Assembly (NCBI GenBank): GCA_900318275.1
Contig: ONJY01000019.1
Coordinates: 1 to 60,124, forward strand
Reading direction: 5' to 3'
Length of the DNA stretch: 60,124 nt
Source of the DNA: an uncultured Bacteroidales bacterium
GTDB lineage: Bacteria; Bacteroidota; Bacteroidia; Bacteroidales; P3
The number at the start of each line of letters is the position of its first letter. Position 1 is the first letter of the stretch. Shown piece after piece: positions 6,044 to 41,248 of this stretch. Under the pieces are notes generated by a model. It was not told the origin of the DNA. It searched no databases and saw only the letters and a program-made list of their open reading frames with translations. The position numbers were made by a program, and so were the translations under genes.

Positions 6044-6153
6044 GAAACCGGTACGGAGCCCCTACGGACCCCCTTCGGCATTTCTTCAGTGGAAGGCCGT
6101 ATGGAGGCCGTAGGGAGACCGAAGAGGGGCCGAAGGGTGGCCGTAGGGGGTGG
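6044..6153. repeat. Degenerate 11-bp-period inverted array, locus 1
   Basis: Ten consecutive 11-bp units fill the middle of the divergent queA / transglycosylase gap. Left-arm units are pyrimidine-rich and end in TAC or TTC (for example GGAGCCCCTAC and GGACCCCCTTC). Right-arm units are purine-rich and end in GCC/ACC (for example GTATGGAGGCC and GAAGAGGGGCC). Polarity flips at GGCATTTCTTCAGT (6077-6090), so the arms are imperfect reverse complements. There are no spacers, so it is not a CRISPR array. The same centre occurs in the array at 32.2 kb. Confidence 0.85.
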
Positions 6154-10243: not shown

Positions 10244-11308
10244 ATGAAAGTGGAGAGAGGAAAGTGGAAAGTGGTTGTGCTGCTTAGCGTCAGCATCGCT
10301 TTCCTCTTTCCTCTTTCTGTTTTCCAGTCTGCCAACGCCCAGGTGGCAGGCCTCAATTCATTGCCCATGCTGCGTCGTAGCAGCATGGCACACACCAATG
10401 CTTTGAGCCTGCGCTATCTGCCGCTTTACGCGGACAATGTAGTTGTGGGTATCGACAACCCGTCATTGCTAACCCGTGGCATGGGTGGTTCAGCCATGCT
10501 GAGCTACTATAACATGTTTGTAGGCGGCAATATGGGATCTCTGGCCTACGCCCACACTTTCAAGCATGTGGGTACGATGGTCTTCGGCTTCCACTTCAAC
10601 AACTACGGTAAGTTCGAGGAATACGACGAAGAGGAAAACTACATAGGCGACTTCTATGCCGAGGACTATGCTCTTAGCGTCGGTTGGGGCATGTGGGTGG
10701 ACTCTAATTTCAGCATCGGTACGACACTAAGGCCGGTGCTTTCGCAGTATGCAGAATACTCAGCAGTGGCCTTGACGCTCGACCTTGCAGGAAGCTATGT
10801 CTCCGATAACCGCCGTTTTGTCGCCACGTTGATGGCCAATAACATCGGCGCCCAGATTGTAACTTTTGACAACAAGGTTGAGAAGGTGCCCTTCGAGCTG
10901 TCGGCAGCTTTGTCTTATAAGCTCAGCAAGGCACCGTTCCGGGTCTTCTTTGCGGCCACTGAACTGCAGCGTTGGAACCTACGTTACAACGACCGCCTCA
11001 ACCCTACGTCGCAGACCGATCCTTTCACTGGCGAGGTTACAAGTGAGAAGCCTTTTGTGGGGTTTATGGATAACCTTATGCGGCACACCGTCTTCGGGGT
11101 GGAGCTGAACCTTGGTACTGTGCTCTTTGCACGTGTGGGCTACAGCTATCGTCAAGCGGCAGAAATGCGTGCGGCCGATGCGTTTAATATGAGTGGCTTC
11201 TCGTTCGGCGTGGGTATACATGTCAAGCAGTTTGAGTTCAGCTACGCCCGACGCAACTACCACCTCGGTCAGGCTCCCAACTACTTCACGTTGAACTATA
11301 AGTTTTAA
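10244..11308 (+). CDS. porQ: Type IX secretion system protein PorQ
   Basis: 354 residues with a signal peptide (VVVLLSVSIAFLFPLSVFQSANAQ) and a predominantly beta-strand body consistent with an outer-membrane beta barrel. The N-terminal pattern (LPMLRRSSMAHTNALS, DNPSLL) and the closing NYFTLNYKF match PorQ-family proteins, which are accessory components of the Bacteroidota type IX secretion/gliding machinery. The start codon and signal peptide are built from heptanucleotide repeats (see repeat entry), so ATG 10244 may have been created by repeat insertion, but no better start exists before the hydrophobic core. Secreted proteins with T9SS tails occur at 32.4, 55.3 and 56.1 kb. Confidence 0.8.
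   Translation: MKVERGKWKVVVLLSVSIAFLFPLSVFQSANAQVAGLNSLPMLRRSSMAHTNALSLRYLPLYADNVVVGIDNPSLLTRGMGGSAMLSYYNMFVGGNMGSLAYAHTFKHVGTMVFGFHFNNYGKFEEYDEEENYIGDFYAEDYALSVGWGMWVDSNFSIGTTLRPVLSQYAEYSAVALTLDLAGSYVSDNRRFVATLMANNIGAQIVTFDNKVEKVPFELSAALSYKLSKAPFRVFFAATELQRWNLRYNDRLNPTSQTDPFTGEVTSEKPFVGFMDNLMRHTVFGVELNLGTVLFARVGYSYRQAAEMRAADAFNMSGFSFGVGIHVKQFEFSYARRNYHLGQAPNYFTLNYKF
10250..10319 (+). repeat. Inverted heptanucleotide array inside the porQ signal peptide
   Basis: GTGGAGA, GAGGAAA, GTGGAAA and a partial GTGG run in tandem from 10250 to 10274. CTTTCCT, CTTTCCT and CTTTCTG run from 10299 to 10319. The second block is the near reverse complement of the first, giving a hairpin with 7-bp repeating arms whose loop and arms encode the first 25 residues of PorQ. 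Confidence 0.8.
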
Positions 11309-16293: not shown

Positions 16294-16411
16294 TTTAGTT
16301 ATGCACAAAAACTTGTTGAAAAGGCCCCACTTTCCTTGACTCTCCGCTAACGCGACACGCACCCTACTTTTTTTACCTCCCGCCCTCCAATTTTCACCTG
16401 CCATCATCCAT

Positions 16412-16444
16412 CTAACCCTCACCTAACCCTCACCTAACCCTCAT
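16412..16444 (+). repeat. Three tandem copies of an 11-bp unit
   Basis: CTAACCCTCAC is repeated exactly twice and a third time with one change (CTAACCCTCAT). It lies about 75 bp before the larger 11-bp array and has the same period, so it may be a younger or less degenerate part of it. Confidence 0.9.
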
Positions 16445-16518
16445 CTGCCCCCAGGAAAGACCCTATGAACACCCTTCGGAGTCGCCCCAGCCGACCTTCC
16501 ATCGGCCCCCACATCCCT

Positions 16519-16672
16519 TTCGGAGTTCCTGCGTAGTTCCATCGGACGTTCGACCATCCTTCGACCATCGTTCTACCATCGTTTAACCATCATATATGGT
16601 CGAAGGATGGTTAAACGATGGTTGAACGATGGTCGAAGTGTCGGACCAACTCCGATGGAAGGGCGGAAACAG
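16519..16672. repeat. Degenerate 11-bp-period inverted array, locus 2
   Basis: About fourteen consecutive 11-bp units. Left units read GACCATCCTTC, GACCATCGTTC, TACCATCGTTT; right units read ATGGTCGAAGG, ATGGTTAAACG, ATGGTTGAACG. The switch point is at CATATATGG (16590-16598). The arms pair over about 35 bp with a one-unit slip (GACCATCGTTC opposite GATGGTTGAAC). It sits in the divergent gap between the nrdD promoter and the promoters of the dehydrogenase gene. The surrounding 16294-16411 and 16445-16518 contain no gene. Confidence 0.9.
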
Positions 16673-22006: not shown

Positions 22007-22025
22007 AGTTATGAGTTATGAGTTG
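22007..22025 (-). repeat. Heptanucleotide array at the rseC-ruvC junction
   Basis: AGTTATG occurs at 22007-22013 and 22014-22020 followed by AGTTG (plus-strand reading). The array fills the gap between the two genes, supplies the TAA stop of rseC and lies 4 bp from the ruvC start codon. Confidence 0.8.
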
Positions 22026-28124: not shown

Positions 28125-28160
28125 CTTAACTCTTAACTCATAACTCATAACTCATAACTC
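28125..28160 (-). repeat. Heptanucleotide array at the batA-batBC junction
   Basis: Five tandem 7-mers on the plus strand: TTAACTC twice (28126-28139) and ATAACTC three times (28140-28160). On the coding strand this reads GAGTTAT/GAGTTAA repeated up to the ATG of batBC. It fills the whole gap apart from four bases. Confidence 0.9.
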
Positions 28161-30028: not shown

Positions 30029-30891
30029 TAACTTCTCCTGCTTAAGAGTGTACGCAGCGGCTTCACGAAGTCCTCGCCCGTGTACAGTGTGGCCATGTCT
30101 ATGCCGTAGCGGCGCATGGTGCGCTCCGTCTGCTCGGCCTGCTGCTTGGCGCGGGCGTCGACCACACGGCGCACCGATGCGCTACCGGTGTCCACCCACA
30201 GCGTCTCCGTGCTCTCGGGGTCGTAGAACTTCACAAGCCCAAGGTCCTCCAGGTGCTCTTCGCGGCGGTCGACAAGCCGCAGCGCCACGATGTCGTGTTT
30301 GCCGGCGGCAATCTTCAGCGCGTCATCGTAGCCGCGGTCGAAGAAGTCGCTCAGCAGGAACGCCGTGCAACGCCGCTTTACGATGTTGTTGAAGTACCCA
30401 AGCGCCTGTGCTATGTCGGTTCCGTTGCTCTCGGGGCGGAAGGTGATGAGCTCGCGTATGATGCGCAGTATGTGTTGACGACCCTTCTTCGGCGGTATGA
30501 ACTTCTCTATGCGGTCGCTGAAGAGTATCACACCCACCTTGTCGTTGTTGGCTATAGCGCTGAAGGCCAGCGTGGCAGCCACCTCGGCGGCCAGTTCTTC
30601 CTTGAACTGGCTCTGTGTGCCGAAACGTCCCGAGCCGCTTACGTCCACCAGCAACATCACCGTCAGCTCGCGTTCCTCCTCGAATATCTTCACATAGGGG
30701 TGTGCCAGACGTGCGGTGACGTTCCAGTCGATGTTGCGCACGTCATCGCCGTACTGGTATTCGCGCACCTCGCTGAAAGCCATGCCGCGCCCCTTGAAGG
30801 CCGAGTGGTATTCGCCGCTGAACATCTGCTGGCTCAACCCCCTCGCCTTTATCTCAATCTTGCGGACCTTCTTGATTATGGATTCATCCAT
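30028..30891 (-). CDS. DUF58 (VWA-like) protein of the Bat operon
   Basis: 287 residues. Conserved DUF58 signature: FSEVREYQYGDDVRNIDWNVTARL followed by VWA-like LLVDVSGSGRFG and LLSDFFDRGYDDAL. The N-terminus (VRKIEIKARGLSQQMFSGEYHSAFKGRG) is typical of the MoxR-linked type without membrane helices, so it is cytoplasmic. In this operon type it follows moxR and is thought to be a substrate or adaptor of the MoxR ATPase. Confidence 0.92.
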   Translation of the reverse strand: MDESIIKKVRKIEIKARGLSQQMFSGEYHSAFKGRGMAFSEVREYQYGDDVRNIDWNVTARLAHPYVKIFEEERELTVMLLVDVSGSGRFGTQSQFKEELAAEVAATLAFSAIANNDKVGVILFSDRIEKFIPPKKGRQHILRIIRELITFRPESNGTDIAQALGYFNNIVKRRCTAFLLSDFFDRGYDDALKIAAGKHDIVALRLVDRREEHLEDLGLVKFYDPESTETLWVDTGSASVRRVVDARAKQQAEQTERTMRRYGIDMATLYTGEDFVKPLRTLLSRRS

Positions 30892-30910
30892 AACTCTTAA
30901 CTCTTAACTG
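30890..30910 (-). repeat. Heptanucleotide array at the moxR-DUF58 junction
   Basis: ATAACTC, TTAACTC and TTAACTG in tandem on the plus strand, the same family as the batA-batBC array, occupying the gap between the moxR stop and the ATG of the DUF58 gene and overlapping that ATG. Confidence 0.85.
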
Positions 30911-30912
30911 AA

Positions 30913-31917
30913 TTAAGGCACATCAACTCTGTTCAGCACTTCGCTCACCACCTCTTCGCTCGTCACGTTCTCGGCCTCGGCCTCGTAGGTCAGGCCCACA
31001 CGGTGGCGCAGCACGTCCATGGCCACGGCGCGCACGTCCTCGGGTATCACGTATCCGCGACGTTTCATGAAAGCATAGGCTTTGGCGGCGCTGGCCAGGC
31101 TGATGCTGCCGCGCGGCGACGCACCGTAGCTTATCAGAGGCTGCAGCTTGTCGAGGCCGTATTGCCCCGGGTAGCGGGTGGCGAACACGATGTCGGTGAT
31201 GTAGTTCTCTATCTTCTCGTCCATATACACTTCGCGCACCACCTCGCGGGCCTTCAGTATGTCGGCAGGCTTCAGTATCGCCGTTCCGCCCGCGGCCTTG
31301 CCTTTGCCGCCCTCGTTAACTTGCTGGTGCAGTATCTGTCGCTCCTCGGCCTTCTTGGGGTAGCCGATGACCACCTTCAGCATGAAGCGGTCCACCTGAG
31401 CCTCGGGCAGCGGGTAGGTGCCCTCCTGCTCTATGGGGTTCTGTGTGGCCAGCACCAGGAACGGCTCCTCGAGCGGGTAGGTCTGCTCGCCGATGGTCAC
31501 TTGGCGTTCCTGCATGGCCTCCAGCAGCGCGCTCTGCACCTTGGCGGGGGCGCGGTTAATCTCGTCGGCCAGTATGAAGTGGCTGAATATCGGGCCCTTC
31601 TTCACCATGAAGCTCTCGCTCTTCTGGCTGTAGATGAGCGTACCTATGAGGTCGGCAGGCAGCAGGTCGGGTGTGAACTGGATGCGGCTGAACTTGGCGT
31701 CGATGGCTTTAGCCAGCGTCGTGATGGCCAGCGTCTTGGCCAGACCCGGCACACCCTCGAGCAGCACATGACCGTTGCTCAGCAAGCCTATCAGCAGGCC
31801 CTCCACCATGTGCTTTTGGCCCACAATCTGCTTGCCAAGCTCCATCTCCAGTGCGCCCACAAAAGCGCTCTCGCGCTCTATGCGGTCGTTAAGTTCTTGA
31901 ATGTTTACAGATTCCAT
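30913..31917 (-). CDS. MoxR family AAA+ ATPase
   Basis: 334 residues. Walker A GVPGLAKT near 60-67, Walker B FILADEINRAPAK near 122, sensor 1 LATQNPIEQEGTYPLPEAQ and the C-terminal lid (YGASPRGSISLASAAKAYA). First gene of the Bat operon; MoxR proteins work as chaperones for metal insertion or complex assembly with VWA partners, here BatA and BatBC. ATG 31917 is supported by homology from the first residues. I could not find a consensus promoter in the 160 bp upstream. Confidence 0.93.
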   Translation of the reverse strand: MESVNIQELNDRIERESAFVGALEMELGKQIVGQKHMVEGLLIGLLSNGHVLLEGVPGLAKTLAITTLAKAIDAKFSRIQFTPDLLPADLIGTLIYSQKSESFMVKKGPIFSHFILADEINRAPAKVQSALLEAMQERQVTIGEQTYPLEEPFLVLATQNPIEQEGTYPLPEAQVDRFMLKVVIGYPKKAEERQILHQQVNEGGKGKAAGGTAILKPADILKAREVVREVYMDEKIENYITDIVFATRYPGQYGLDKLQPLISYGASPRGSISLASAAKAYAFMKRRGYVIPEDVRAVAMDVLRHRVGLTYEAEAENVTSEEVVSEVLNRVDVP

Positions 31918-32080
31918 ACTGTGTATCTATTATTGTTTCTCTATTTTCGTCTCTATCCAGATTTCCATTAAACTCTTTTATTTGTTTTTTATTGTATATT
32001 TAACATTCTTTTTGAAATACCACAAGGGAAGTGCATACCCATAGGGACCACCCGACCTCGATTTTTAACATCATTTAACC

Positions 32081-32275
32081 TAATAGCCCTTGTAGCCTTT
32101 TCGTAGCCTTTTTGTAGCCTCTTCGGAGCCCCTTCGTCGTTCCCTCGGCGATCCTTCGGCATTTCTTCAGTAGTATTTCAGTGTTTTACTGAAGAACTAC
32201 TGAAGAAGTATCGTTGAAGTACTGAAGAACTGCCGTACCGGCTCCGTAGGGGAGGTGGGGTGGAAGGGGGCGGGG
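32081..32275. repeat. Degenerate 11-bp-period inverted array, locus 3
   Basis: About eighteen consecutive 11-bp units between moxR and the T9SS protein gene (divergent). Left units: GTAGCCTTTTC, GTAGCCTTTTT, GTAGCCTCTTC, GGAGCCCCTTC, drifting to GGCATTTCTTC. Right units: ACTGAAGAACT, ACTGAAGAAGT, ATCGTTGAAGT, drifting to purine-rich TCCGTAGGGGA. The polarity switch is near 32184-32188. The sequence CCTTCGGCATTTCTTCAGT (32153-32171) is identical to the centre of locus 1. The flanking 31918-32080 and 32276-32309 hold no gene; the latter is a poly-A-rich stretch. Confidence 0.9.
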
Positions 32276-32309
32276 GTGAAGAAAAAAAAAGAAAAAAAAT
32301 GACAATAGG

Positions 32310-32341
32310 TTGTTATATATAAAAAAAAAAGTGTATCTTTG
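32310..32341 (+). promoter_or_regulatory. Promoter of the large T9SS protein
   Basis: TTG (32310-32312) and TATCTTTG (32334-32341) with a 21-bp spacer, about 55 bp before the ATG. Confidence 0.7.
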
Positions 32342-32394
32342 TGCATTGAAAGTTTTTGTACAAAGTAGAATAATTAACTAATTAATAATATCTT

Positions 32395-35300
32395 ATGAAA
32401 AGGAACAAAGTACTTCTCGGCTTGTTTGCAGGCGTTTTGGCTTTGATGGGGGGCAGTGTGCGTGCCCAGCAGGACACCAATTTCGTTGAGATTGGCCCCA
32501 TCAACGTCGGCGGACATGTCACCAGTCTTCTCGCCGACCGTTTGGACGGCACAACCATCTATGCCGGTTCCGCTACCGGCGGTCTCTTCGTCAGGTCCGA
32601 CAACCAGACGACCCTTCAGAGTCTCTACACCTATCGCGGCATGAGCACCTCGCTGGCTAACAACCGCGATATATGGCATTGGGTGCCTTGGCGCGTCGAC
32701 GGCAAGGATGTGGCCATGCCGATAAGCTGCCTGACGCAGTGCAGCGACAACACTATCTTCATCGGCACCGGCAGCGACGAGTACACGGTGGGCAGCACCT
32801 ACGCACCCATGTCGGTAATGGGTTGCGGCATCTTCTGCTATAATCCAGCCACATGCCAGTTCAATGTCATCCCTGGTACTGTGCCCACGAGCGTGAACGA
32901 CGACTTTGCCTCTGTGCGCAAGATTGACCTTATCGAGGGCAACGACGGTATTTACCTGTTCGCCGTCACCAAAGGCGGCCTTTACCGTATCCATAAAACC
33001 AACAATCAGAGCTGGTCTGACATCGAGGTGACTGTCGACGACCGTGTTGTCGATTGTGCCGACCTCGGTGGCAGCATCGATCAGTTTGTTGTTGTCCGCC
33101 AACTTAAGATAGCCTTCTTCAGCGTTGGCAGCCAGCTGTATAAAATCGGCAACCTTAAGGCCTACAACCTGAGGGCTGACAATATGTCGAGCAGCAACGA
33201 TGCTTTCGGAACCCCCAACACGGCCCTAAAGATCGCTGTCGCACCCTCTGATCCCACTTACATCTATGTTATGACCATCAACGGCATGGGCATGATGGAC
33301 GCCGTTTACCTCACCCGCGACCTGCAGACCTGGCAGCCCATCACCACCAGCACGGTGCGTGTGTACTCCATGTCAGCCATCAACGACAAGGCCGTGGTCA
33401 GCGGCGACGGCCGCCACTGCGGTACAATCTTCGTCGATGAGAACGACCCCACACACGTCTTCGTGGGCGGTTCGTCGATATGGAGCGGCCACAGCTATGT
33501 CCCAGGTTCCTACTATCAGTGGACCAAGGAGTCCTACTGCGAACAGGAGCTCAACTACGGCAACTATATGGCTTCGGTGTTTCGTAACCCCTCTTTCGTG
33601 CACTCCGGCATCCACCAGATCATCTGCGCCCCGCGCATGGTGAACGGTACCTACATGAATGTGTACTACATCGCCACCGACGGCGGTGTCTTCCGTTCCT
33701 ATCACAACATGACCATGTATGAAGAGCTCAACCGCGGCCTTAACGCCATGCAGACCAACAGCATCGCCGTGGCCCCCGACGCATCGGTCATCAGCGGTGC
33801 CCACAACGGCGCCTGTCCTCTCATCGAGGCCCGCGCAGCCTACAACGGTGGCCAGCCCGATGTGGAATGGTATGACGACGGCACCCATGGCAACATGAAC
33901 CACGACGCCATCATCACCTGGAAGGACAACGGCGGCATGGTGGCTGCTTCTATGTTCCAGCGCTACAAACCCACAACTTCGCGCACCATCTTCGTCTCTT
34001 CCAACGACAACCAGTTTGGTCGCGCCTATGCCGACTATATGGACTACAACCAGACGCAGACCTGGACCGAGGGACAGCGCTTCATGAGCAGCTCCATGGT
34101 CAACGGCCAGGCGGTATCGTTCATGTCGCTTTGGGAGACTGACCACGACACTATCTTCAACGATTCTATAACTGTCAGAATCGACACCCTCGGCTATGTG
34201 CGCCGCGACATCAACGGCGACGGCATCCTGGATACGATGTGGTTCAACAACTCAAGCTTCCAGATTCTGGCAGGCGACAGCATGACTGTGATGAGCCGTG
34301 CTCAGGGTTATTATCCTTTCGAATATGGTTTCACTTTCGACACCACCGCCGGTACCGTGAATCAGGTGATATCTTCGTCTGATACACTTGAGATTATCAC
34401 CCCGACCGTCATAAAGGTGAAGAACCCCATGCAGTCGCGTATGCTTATGATCGGCAGCGATGCAGCCCGTAAGACCTGCTGGACGGTATGGATGTCGTGG
34501 CGTTCCACCGACTTCTCCAAGGTGTGGATGTCTGAGTTGCCCGACAACGATACATGGGAAGGCCAGCAGTTGTGGACGGGTATCTATATTGTGAACAACG
34601 CCCTTCAGGAGAGCAAGTACAATATTCCCCGTGCCGCTGTGATGAGCGCCGATGGCCGCATGGCTTATATCGCAGTGAACGATACCGCCGCCAACAAGTC
34701 AATGATTGTGCGTGTCAAGGGCTTCGACAGCATCGATTACTCCAAGACTTCGTTCGAGGTGGCAAGACAGAGCCAGTGTTTCCCCTATTCCAGCTCTTCT
34801 GTGACACGTTTGGTGGCGGACACTATGTTCCTTGACCTTGACAGCAACTATTGGATTGACCGTGCAATCAGCTCTATGCTCGTAGACACAACTACCGGCG
34901 TGGAACGTATCATCATTACTTTCGAAGGTTATAACGATGACTACGCCAACGTGGCCGAGGTGAGCAACCCGCAGGGTGACTGGACCATCAGCCAGCGCCC
35001 CATCAGCGGCCAGAGCTCGCTGCCCGCCTACTGCGCCATGGTGGAAGCCTCCACGGGCGACCTCTACGTGGGTACCGCCAACGGCGTGTGGATTGACAAG
35101 GCCGGCAGCTGGAGCCAGTACGACCACCTGCGCGGTCTGCCTGTCACCAGCATGGTGCAGCAGAAAGCCGCCCTCAAGGCCCGTCACCACATCGGCCATA
35201 ACGGCATCAACCCCGAGTATTACCTCTTCCCGAAGACCAAATGGCCGGGCGCCATCTACTTCGGCACCTACGGCCGTGGTATCTTCATGGACATGACTTA

Positions 35301-35631
35301 TGTGACCGACCGCACCGACGCCATCTTCGACACCGCCTACTATCACTACGGTATACCCACCGTGGAGAGCAACGGCAACACTAGCCTGAGCATCTTTCCC
35401 AACCCCGTCATGGGTGACGCCAACCTGACGATCACTACCAACGAAGCCGGCAGCGCCATGCTGCGCATCTACGACATCAACGGCCGTTGCGTGGCCAGCC
35501 GCAGCCTCGGCCATGTGTCGGAAGGCGAGCAGGTCTACACCGTCAGCACCGAAGGTATGGCCAAGGGCATGTACCTCGTCAACGTCATCATAGGAGGCCA
35601 CACGTCGGCCACCAAGATGATGGTTCGCTAA
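32395..35631 (+). CDS. Large secreted protein with type IX secretion C-terminal sorting domain
   Basis: 1078 residues. Signal peptide (LLGLFAGVLALMGGSVRAQQ). The body has many beta-propeller-like segments (VTSLLADRLDGTTIYAGSATGG, DPTHVFVGGSSIW, TGDLYVGTANGVWI) resembling sortilin/BNR or two-component-propeller repeats. A short acidic DxNGDG stretch (RRDINGDGILDTMW) resembles a dockerin-like calcium loop. The final ~80 residues (SLSIFPNPVMGDANLTI ... MAKGMYLVNVIIGG ... KMMVR) are a type A T9SS sorting domain, so the protein should be exported and anchored at the surface. The ligand is unknown. It has its own promoter and a terminator, i.e. it is monocistronic. Confidence 0.85.
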   Translation: MKRNKVLLGLFAGVLALMGGSVRAQQDTNFVEIGPINVGGHVTSLLADRLDGTTIYAGSATGGLFVRSDNQTTLQSLYTYRGMSTSLANNRDIWHWVPWRVDGKDVAMPISCLTQCSDNTIFIGTGSDEYTVGSTYAPMSVMGCGIFCYNPATCQFNVIPGTVPTSVNDDFASVRKIDLIEGNDGIYLFAVTKGGLYRIHKTNNQSWSDIEVTVDDRVVDCADLGGSIDQFVVVRQLKIAFFSVGSQLYKIGNLKAYNLRADNMSSSNDAFGTPNTALKIAVAPSDPTYIYVMTINGMGMMDAVYLTRDLQTWQPITTSTVRVYSMSAINDKAVVSGDGRHCGTIFVDENDPTHVFVGGSSIWSGHSYVPGSYYQWTKESYCEQELNYGNYMASVFRNPSFVHSGIHQIICAPRMVNGTYMNVYYIATDGGVFRSYHNMTMYEELNRGLNAMQTNSIAVAPDASVISGAHNGACPLIEARAAYNGGQPDVEWYDDGTHGNMNHDAIITWKDNGGMVAASMFQRYKPTTSRTIFVSSNDNQFGRAYADYMDYNQTQTWTEGQRFMSSSMVNGQAVSFMSLWETDHDTIFNDSITVRIDTLGYVRRDINGDGILDTMWFNNSSFQILAGDSMTVMSRAQGYYPFEYGFTFDTTAGTVNQVISSSDTLEIITPTVIKVKNPMQSRMLMIGSDAARKTCWTVWMSWRSTDFSKVWMSELPDNDTWEGQQLWTGIYIVNNALQESKYNIPRAAVMSADGRMAYIAVNDTAANKSMIVRVKGFDSIDYSKTSFEVARQSQCFPYSSSSVTRLVADTMFLDLDSNYWIDRAISSMLVDTTTGVERIIITFEGYNDDYANVAEVSNPQGDWTISQRPISGQSSLPAYCAMVEASTGDLYVGTANGVWIDKAGSWSQYDHLRGLPVTSMVQQKAALKARHHIGHNGINPEYYLFPKTKWPGAIYFGTYGRGIFMDMTYVTDRTDAIFDTAYYHYGIPTVESNGNTSLSIFPNPVMGDANLTITTNEAGSAMLRIYDINGRCVASRSLGHVSEGEQVYTVSTEGMAKGMYLVNVIIGGHTSATKMMVR

Positions 35632-40401: not shown

Positions 40402-41248
40402 TTAGCGCATCGGGTCGGGGGTCTCGAGGATGATGGGCATGTCGTCGAAGCGGGGGTCGTGCATGAAGCGCGAGAAGAACTCTTTGCCGAGGAAGCCCTC
40501 GCCCAGCACCTCGTGGCGGTCCACATGGCTGCCGGCGTTCTTCTTGCTGTCGTTGAGGTGGATGGCGCGGAGGTACTGTTGACCTATCAGGCGGTCGAAT
40601 TCCTCGAAGCAGAACATATAGCCCATCTCAGTCGAAAGATCGTAACCGGCGGCGAGAGTGTGGCAGGTGTCGATGCAGACACCCACACGGCTCTTGTCGT
40701 CGATACCGCTGATGATGCGGGCGATATGCTCAAACTTCCAACCGAGGTTGGTGCCCTGTCCGGCGGTGTTCTCTATCACGGCCGTCACGCCTTCGGTCTT
40801 GCTGGGTGTTCTCTATCACGGCCGTCACGCCTTCGGTCTTGCTGAGGGCGAGGTTCACCTCGCGGGCTATCTGGTCGAGGCATTCCTCCTCGCTGACCTT
40901 GTTGAGGTGGCTGCCCGGGTGGAAGTTCAGCATGGTGAGGCCCAGCTGCTGGGCACGCTGCATCTCGTCGAGGAAGGCGGCGCGGCTTTTTTGCAGCGTC
41001 TCCTCGTCGGGCGAGCCGAGGTTTATGAGGTAGCTGTCGTGCGGCAGCACCATCTCGGGCTTGAAACCTCTATCTATAAGCAGAGCTTTGAAGCCGTCAA
41101 TCTCCAGTTGAGGTAGAGGTTTGCTCACCCAGCTGCGCTGGTTGCGGGTAAACAAGGCAAAGGCGTTGGCCCCGATGGCCTCGGCATTCAGTATGGCGTT
41201 ACCTACGCCGCCCGATGCGCTCACATGTGCGCCGATATATTTTGTCAT
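40402..41248 (-). pseudogene. nfo: Deoxyribonuclease IV (AP endonuclease), frameshifted by a 40-bp tandem duplication
   Basis: Nfo cleaves DNA at abasic sites using three zinc ions. The N-terminal 142 residues ([19 protein letters not shown] ... [11 protein letters not shown] ... VTAVIENT) read from 41248. After an exact duplication of 40 bp (40765-40804 = 40805-40844) the frame shifts, and the C-terminal part ([16 protein letters not shown] ... [13 protein letters not shown] ... [19 protein letters not shown]) continues in another frame to 40402. Removing one copy restores a single ORF of about 280 residues, the family's normal length, with all metal-binding His/Glu/Asp motifs. The gene is otherwise undamaged, so the lesion is recent, reversible or an assembly error. 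Confidence 0.9.
40765..40844. repeat. Perfect 40-bp tandem duplication in nfo
   Basis: Two adjacent identical 40-bp copies starting GGTGTTCTCTATCACGGCCG; 40 is not a multiple of three. Confidence 0.97.

Follow-up and report, generated by a model that had tools for sequence, protein, structure and literature searches.

An array of 11-base units next to a MoxR-type gene belongs to a dispersed repeat family in uncultured Bacteroidales and may be a protein-binding lattice

The array of 11-base units in the gap between a moxR-type gene and the gene for a putative T9SS protein of an uncultured Bacteroidales bacterium belongs to a repeat family that is dispersed in genomes of the genus. It lies in the window, the whole stretch of 60,124 bases that was analyzed (Table 1). 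Our tentative preference, held at somewhat less than an even chance, is that the repeats spread by copying and that their units may be kept as recognition sites for a candidate protein on one helical lattice. The idea of a shared DNA-binding protein, put forward as a candidate in the initial annotation, fits best. Below, G000 is the genome of the window, and the other G numbers are relatives of the genus.

Table 1. Coordinates of the array, its parts and neighboring features in the window.
Feature	Position	Strand	Evidence or remark
Whole 11-base lattice, about 17-18 units	about 32085 to 32260-32275	.	lag-11 profile
Four direct units of GTAGCC-type, outer left	32092..32135	+	
Intermediate left units, drifting from outer to inner type	32136..32168	+	unit list, gradient
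98-base core also present elsewhere in own genome, identity up to 96%	32153..32250	.	
Innermost left unit	32169..32179	+	9/11 bases mirrored
Dyad unit, AGT-5 bases-ACT	32180..32190	.	spacer length fixed, letters free in other copies
Right arm, inverted inner units	32191..32234	-	
Right outer units, G-rich, fading	32235..32267	-	lag-11 profile
TATCTTTG, presumed -7-like promoter element of downstream gene	32334..32341	+	motif match
MoxR-type AAA ATPase gene, divergent neighbor	30913..31917	-	ORF
1078-aa gene, putative T9SS protein (label from initial annotation)	32395..35631	+	ORF
Second 11-base array, GC-rich CCTACGG/CCGTAGG units	6048..6148	.	
Third 11-base array, direct CTAACCCTCAC units	16409..16451	+	
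Fourth 11-base array, inverted CGTTCGACCAT units, 5-base dyad spacer	16521..16637	.	

The 11-base period at 32081-32275 is real. The lag-11 self-match is 0.592, a value that none of 5000 dinucleotide shuffles equals (0.254 ± 0.033, maximum 0.380), and the best of lags 4 to 39 in 2000 shuffles does not exceed 0.427. The count of about eighteen phased units made at first reading agrees with the lag-11 profile. The check set at that time, whether unit similarity decays with unit distance, gave a Spearman coefficient of -0.41 over 18 units (0 of 5000 permutations as low); the coefficient is -0.76 in the left arm (0 of 2000 as low) and -0.52 in the right arm (33 of 2000). The symmetry centers on base 32185, and mirrored units agree at 9, 8, 4, 6, 8, 5, 2 and 3 of 11 bases from the innermost outward, indicating that only the inner part is inverted. 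Read along the plus strand, the four GTAGCC-type direct units are followed by drifting units, inner TTCTTCAGTAG-type units, the dyad, inverted inner units and fading G-rich units. The description of the whole as an inverted array therefore holds for the inner units, which are mirrored, and not for the outer ones, which are direct; of the near-identical neighbors placed at both ends, the pair ACTGAAGAACT/ACTGAAGAAGT adjoins the dyad (32188-32209) and not the right end.

The moxR-gap array matches at least 40 places in G000 at E values up to 1 (96 pieces, both strands), the scoring having covered 40 of 83 first-pass candidates, and its core is found again there. Six of 61 genomes (60 relatives plus its own) match it at E ≤0.001, with many copies in G000 and G022 only. 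A sequence-independent scan detected 48 lag-11 segments in 860 kb of G000 and none at lags 13, 17, 19, 23, 25 and 26; arrays were called by a lag-11 match score, and some weak calls are low-complexity runs (e.g. L042:13127). The other lags seen in this sample are 14 (47 segments), 8 (23), 22 (22), 10 (9), 16 (7) and 20 (5), of which 22 is a multiple of 11 and 14, like 7, reflects 7-base repeats. The samples taken from G022, G015 and G011, like a mixed one from the genus, resemble G000 in lag-11 segments; no such segment occurs in 271 kb drawn from 20 further families of this order. Eight genus members (G013, G026, G003, G020, G027, G030, G017 and G002) have no arrays at score 20 and two at score 16 in 182 kb together, so that probably only some members of the genus have the trait. 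A one-mismatch pattern occurs in 9 of 59 genomes of the genus and its reversed control in none; an order-wide search for an exact pattern found it in 0 of 393 genomes, a weak negative, as this pattern also misses the array-bearing G000. Once the arrays are masked, spacers have no lag-11 excess (0.2794, with 0.2801 and 0.2775 at lags 10 and 12), and a general 11-base texture of spacers was rejected. The literature search found no account of such arrays for this bacterial group.

The initial annotation explained the gradient by local duplication followed by divergence. The gradient stands, and gaps of whole units between related arrays are in keeping with it, but a purely local origin is insufficient, because other places in the genome carry the core too and, across the genus, arrays made of other units keep to the 11-base step.

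The general layout places inverted units on both sides of a dyad and direct units farther out; by the analysis' own cut, 66 of the 166 arrays count as palindromes and 100 fall below it. Arms are about 44 bases long in G028 and G011, and only some types have CGTC at their outer end. Lag changes number 73, in 41 of 149 arrays, and by eye lie mostly at dyads or ends, few being internal. Direct outer-type arrays often adjoin an inverted array (L128:562-945, L053:13915-14069, L116:16638-16843), as in the window, which suggests a composite layout.

The dyad combines conserved units with a free center. Among 27 G028 copies, 20 of them chosen by a pattern within units and seven by periodicity, pairwise divergence in unit shells 1-3 is 0.06, as against 0.53 for the 5-base center and 0.73 for sequence 90-120 bases away, and the seven chosen by periodicity give the same picture (0.066, 0.59 and 0.74). 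The composition of the loops themselves predicts a divergence of 0.615, so the center is near random. Its length is nevertheless fixed: in a scan of spacer lengths 0-15, it is 5 bases in all 25 G028 matches, all 18 G022 matches and 14 of the 18 in G000, the remaining G000 spacers being 2, 4, 8 and 15. A spacer of 16, which is 5 plus one unit, was seen in all three genomes, and the same scan of a second unit type of G000 gave five dyads at spacer 5, one at 10 and nine at 16. Stem variation in G028 is limited to 5 of the 11 unit phases (0, 5, 7, 0, 0, 11, 0, 11, 0, 30 and 0 minor alleles), part of it stemming from one alternative unit. The arrays thus combine fixed spacing with conserved sites and a spacer of free sequence, as expected of a tandem protein-binding array.

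Between species the period is constant and the unit sequences differ widely: TTCTTCAGTAG is found in G000 and G022, GTTCTTCGATT in G028, GGTAGTATTAC in G011 and CTACCAACTCC in G008, along with other types. In the orthologous moxR/T9SS gap, an 11-base array, often with different unit sequences, is present at 10 of the 14 named loci; all 14 are MAG records of Bacteroidales, one of them Candidatus Colimorpha. The array is weak in L026, L029 and L033, and there is none in L030, L031, L032 and L034. Arrays are associated between orthologues (10, 3, 1, 18; p 4e-5), which is not independent evidence, because nearly all array-bearing pairs are this same gap. Among 55 orthologous spacers of G000 and G022, nine have arrays in both genomes, seven in G022 only, none in G000 only and 39 in neither. 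One of the nine is a T-rich run and one has unrelated 11-base arrays, and at least three of the seven have, by eye, a related sub-threshold array in G000. Between related arrays, gap lengths have their main peaks at 11 and 22 bases (216 and 47 gaps out of 813, from 467 non-independent pairs), as opposed to 1 and 2 of 56 in array-free control spacers, which indicates that whole units are gained and lost; minor peaks lie at 3 and 8 bases, which add up to 11. Small indels per substitution are only about 2.7 times rarer in arrays than in control spacers (non-independent pairs), a point against the binding lattice considered below. At one orthologous divergent spacer where G000 has an inverted array, G022 has in its place an AT-rich 11-base array that is unrelated to it, and the flanks are conserved (L057:1940-1979 and L042:19191-19278).

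Of the 48 G000 segments, 22 lie in divergent spacers, 17 in co-directional and 5 in convergent ones, 3 at ends of stretches and 1 inside a called gene, as placed by gene calls made within this analysis. The corresponding spacer totals are 21.1 kb, 41.9 kb and 9.1 kb; divergent spacers are therefore over-represented among arrays, though arrays themselves lengthen spacers. An array within a called gene (L116:2272-2372) may be a gene-call error. Relative to the -7 motif of the downstream gene, which in the moxR gap we take to be TATCTTTG from the motif familiar in Bacteroidota, 80 of 81 gene-array combinations are upstream and one is in the leader, leaders making up 18% of the bases. Distances between array edge and motif range widely, from 25 to 1386. 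The genes downstream are varied housekeeping genes: 89 of 107 were scanned and matched 162 Pfam families, the commonest among the first 25 families listed occurring in 3 of 89, and AAA_3/bpMoxR matched two members among the 89 proteins. An autoregulator encoded behind the arrays was rejected, as no family recurs among those listed for these 89 of 107 genes.

In the explanation that we prefer, copying would spread the arrays, and gain or loss of whole units would lengthen or shorten them. Selection would then hold the units as recognition sites of a sequence-specific DNA-binding protein or of a few paralogues. The putative protein would line one face of the DNA with one protomer per turn and meet its mirror image at the dyad, where the 5-base center would act as a spacer only, its length mattering and its letters being free. 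A turn of negatively supercoiled DNA takes about eleven bases, so that a lattice with this step would keep its helical phase. Conserved units and spacing, free spacer letters, arms that do not covary and exclusion from leaders together point to recognition at the DNA level, with one site per turn, and not to RNA or a cruciform. The lattice would probably serve to organize the nucleoid or to control the downstream genes globally. A more ambitious form of this explanation appears rather unlikely: a genus-wide chromosomal lattice of tens to about 100 palindromic arrays per genome, in which one-turn units meet at a dyad under a candidate architectural protein and the preferred unit is rewritten between species while the 11-base geometry stays fixed.

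Several observations count against a binding lattice. Unit sequences vary by species and several types occur per genome, which is hard to reconcile with one protein; 3 of the 17 G000 dyad matches with a spacer ≤8 have 2, 4 or 8 bases; the distance to the -7 motif is variable; and the candidate proteins gave no binder. RHH_1 (PF01402) had no hits in 10 array-bearing genomes, Trans_reg_C (PF00486, the OmpR/PhoB wing domain) is present in 18 of 18 genomes with and without arrays and so does not sort with them, and HU counts are ordinary, with no expansion that sorts with arrays. If a binding lattice is nevertheless correct, the arrays would belong to an unrecognized system of chromosome organization or global regulation in abundant, uncultured Bacteroidales of the rumen and gut, one with a natural experiment built in, since the geometry is constant and the unit sequence is rewritten per species.

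The nearest binding arrays are pho boxes and parC, and the nearest repeat classes are BrickBuilt and REPs; none of them, as far as the available source texts go, combines all the features. Pho boxes are tandem 11-base sites of PhoB/OmpR-type regulators, arranged head-to-tail, with two or few units at a regulon. They resemble the present arrays in having head-to-tail sites one helical turn apart, whereas the arrays here have as many as about 18 units, with inverted halves and several unit types, and occupy many loci. The plasmid centromere parC consists of arrays of 11-base direct repeats at a single plasmid locus, bound as a cooperative lattice by ParR, a ribbon-helix-helix protein. The direct 11-base repeats are shared, but here the arrays are dispersed, and a plasmid centromere of this type was rejected because its RHH_1 partner is missing from all 10 array-bearing genomes searched. 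Two exact array patterns had no matches in viral contigs, and blastn gave no match of arrays to phages and plasmids.

A possible but less probable explanation is that the arrays are selfish palindromes of a MITE-like or REP-like kind, small non-coding elements without host function that a transposase supplied from elsewhere moves or copies. The 11-base units would then be internal minisatellite structure, the stems would look conserved because their copies are young or homogenized by gene conversion, and the center would be either the hypermutable loop of a hairpin or a coupling or target sequence of fixed length. There are tens to about 100 near-identical copies with unrelated flanks, and arrays account for extra spacer length, gaps measuring 215-230 bases without an array (L030, L032, G015) and 383-687 with one. 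The G028 copies also have their unit-allele order in common (shell 4 GTCTGTTCTTC, shell 3 mostly GATTGTTCTCC); this indicates descent by copying, which would be expected of a selfish element as well and so weighs against the lattice. On the other hand, ends are graded and not sharp, conservation beyond 50 bases in the 27 G028 copies fading with every-eleventh-base echoes and no edge. Alignments of G000 and G022 spacers, judged by eye, contain no clean empty site with a target duplication, and near-random centers next to conserved stems require an extra process. Y1_Tnp (RAYT), the only transposase searched for, has no hits in array-bearing G000 (88.64% complete), G008 and G015 (100%); it is found in other genus members (e.g. 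one in G022 and seven in G001). RAYT/REP mobilization was accordingly rejected as a general requirement.

The BrickBuilt MITE of Porphyromonas gingivalis has 23-base direct units, a leader, a tail and IS5-like terminal repeats, according to the available part of its description (PMC4596501), and is a precedent for tandem units within a MITE in Bacteroidota. In the same text it is likewise intergenic, present in tens of copies as tandem units in a dispersed element, and restricted by species in its sequence; it differs from the present arrays, which have 11-base units inverted around a dyad and in which no sharp ends were found. GTAG- and CGTC-tagged REPs, in the text available for them, have stems of 5-13 bases, are mostly downstream of genes and plausibly transcribed, and the CGTC group lacks a dedicated transposase (PMC3733652). 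To judge by that text they too are dispersed palindromes in many families, with the CGTC tetranucleotide in common with some types here (PMC3733652), but the arms here are longer, are built of 11-base units and lie upstream of promoters. Host function, in the form of a lattice, is a somewhat more probable cause of the conservation than element biology, in the form of young or homogenized MITE-like copies. If the arrays are selfish, they would form a repeat class that keeps an internal 11-base geometry with free sequence, which asks for a copying mechanism.

Selection for secondary structure, either a DNA cruciform or an RNA hairpin (terminator, attenuator or RNA stability element), is improbable. 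The single-strand DNA fold of -34 kcal/mol is lower than that of any of 200 shuffles (-21.8 ± 3.3), and inner-arm complementarity is 0.82, 0.92 and 0.81 in shells 0-2, in arrays chosen for complementarity within 38 bases. The arms, however, do not covary. Agreement between arms is 49 of 81 in G028, 16 of 54 in G022 and 4 of 42 in G000, compared with 47.9, 21.1 and 5.4 when alleles are permuted among copies; this also lends no support to templated copying of adjacent units, the other origin suggested at first, insofar as it was tested between arms. Compensatory change in seven copies amounted to 4 compensated cells as against 31 broken ones, and an early impression of mirrored variants in G028 was lost on counting. 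Direct-only arrays exist, below the palindrome cut; the dyad spacer is fixed, and all but one of the combinations are upstream of promoters. No terminator-like site (G+C-rich stem followed by a T run) occurs in 31900-32420, of the 44 arrays that were classified, 5 have convergent genes on either side, and the seven Rfam matches with E up to 1 are all below the gathering score.

Least probable is neutral minisatellite drift, in which slippage in low-constraint spacers would produce arrays that are neither element nor binding site: the dominance of 11- and 22-base gaps and the fast turnover of spacers between G000 and G022 agree with it, but a single period of 11 over unrelated units and many species, its absence from the 20 other families sampled and the conserved dyad spacing do not. 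Arrays of period 7 (lags 7 and 14), period 8 and, in a few cases, period 10 in G000 indicate that slippage at other periods does occur there.

Repeats of other kinds were also noted. The 7-base repeats are common in G000 and G022, with 130 lag-7 segments in the two samples, and in the window tandem copies of TAACTCA, TAACTCT and others lie at 28127-28160, 30891-30909, 10246-10274 and 22007-22024. The window also contains a perfect tandem duplication of 40 bases at 40765-40844.
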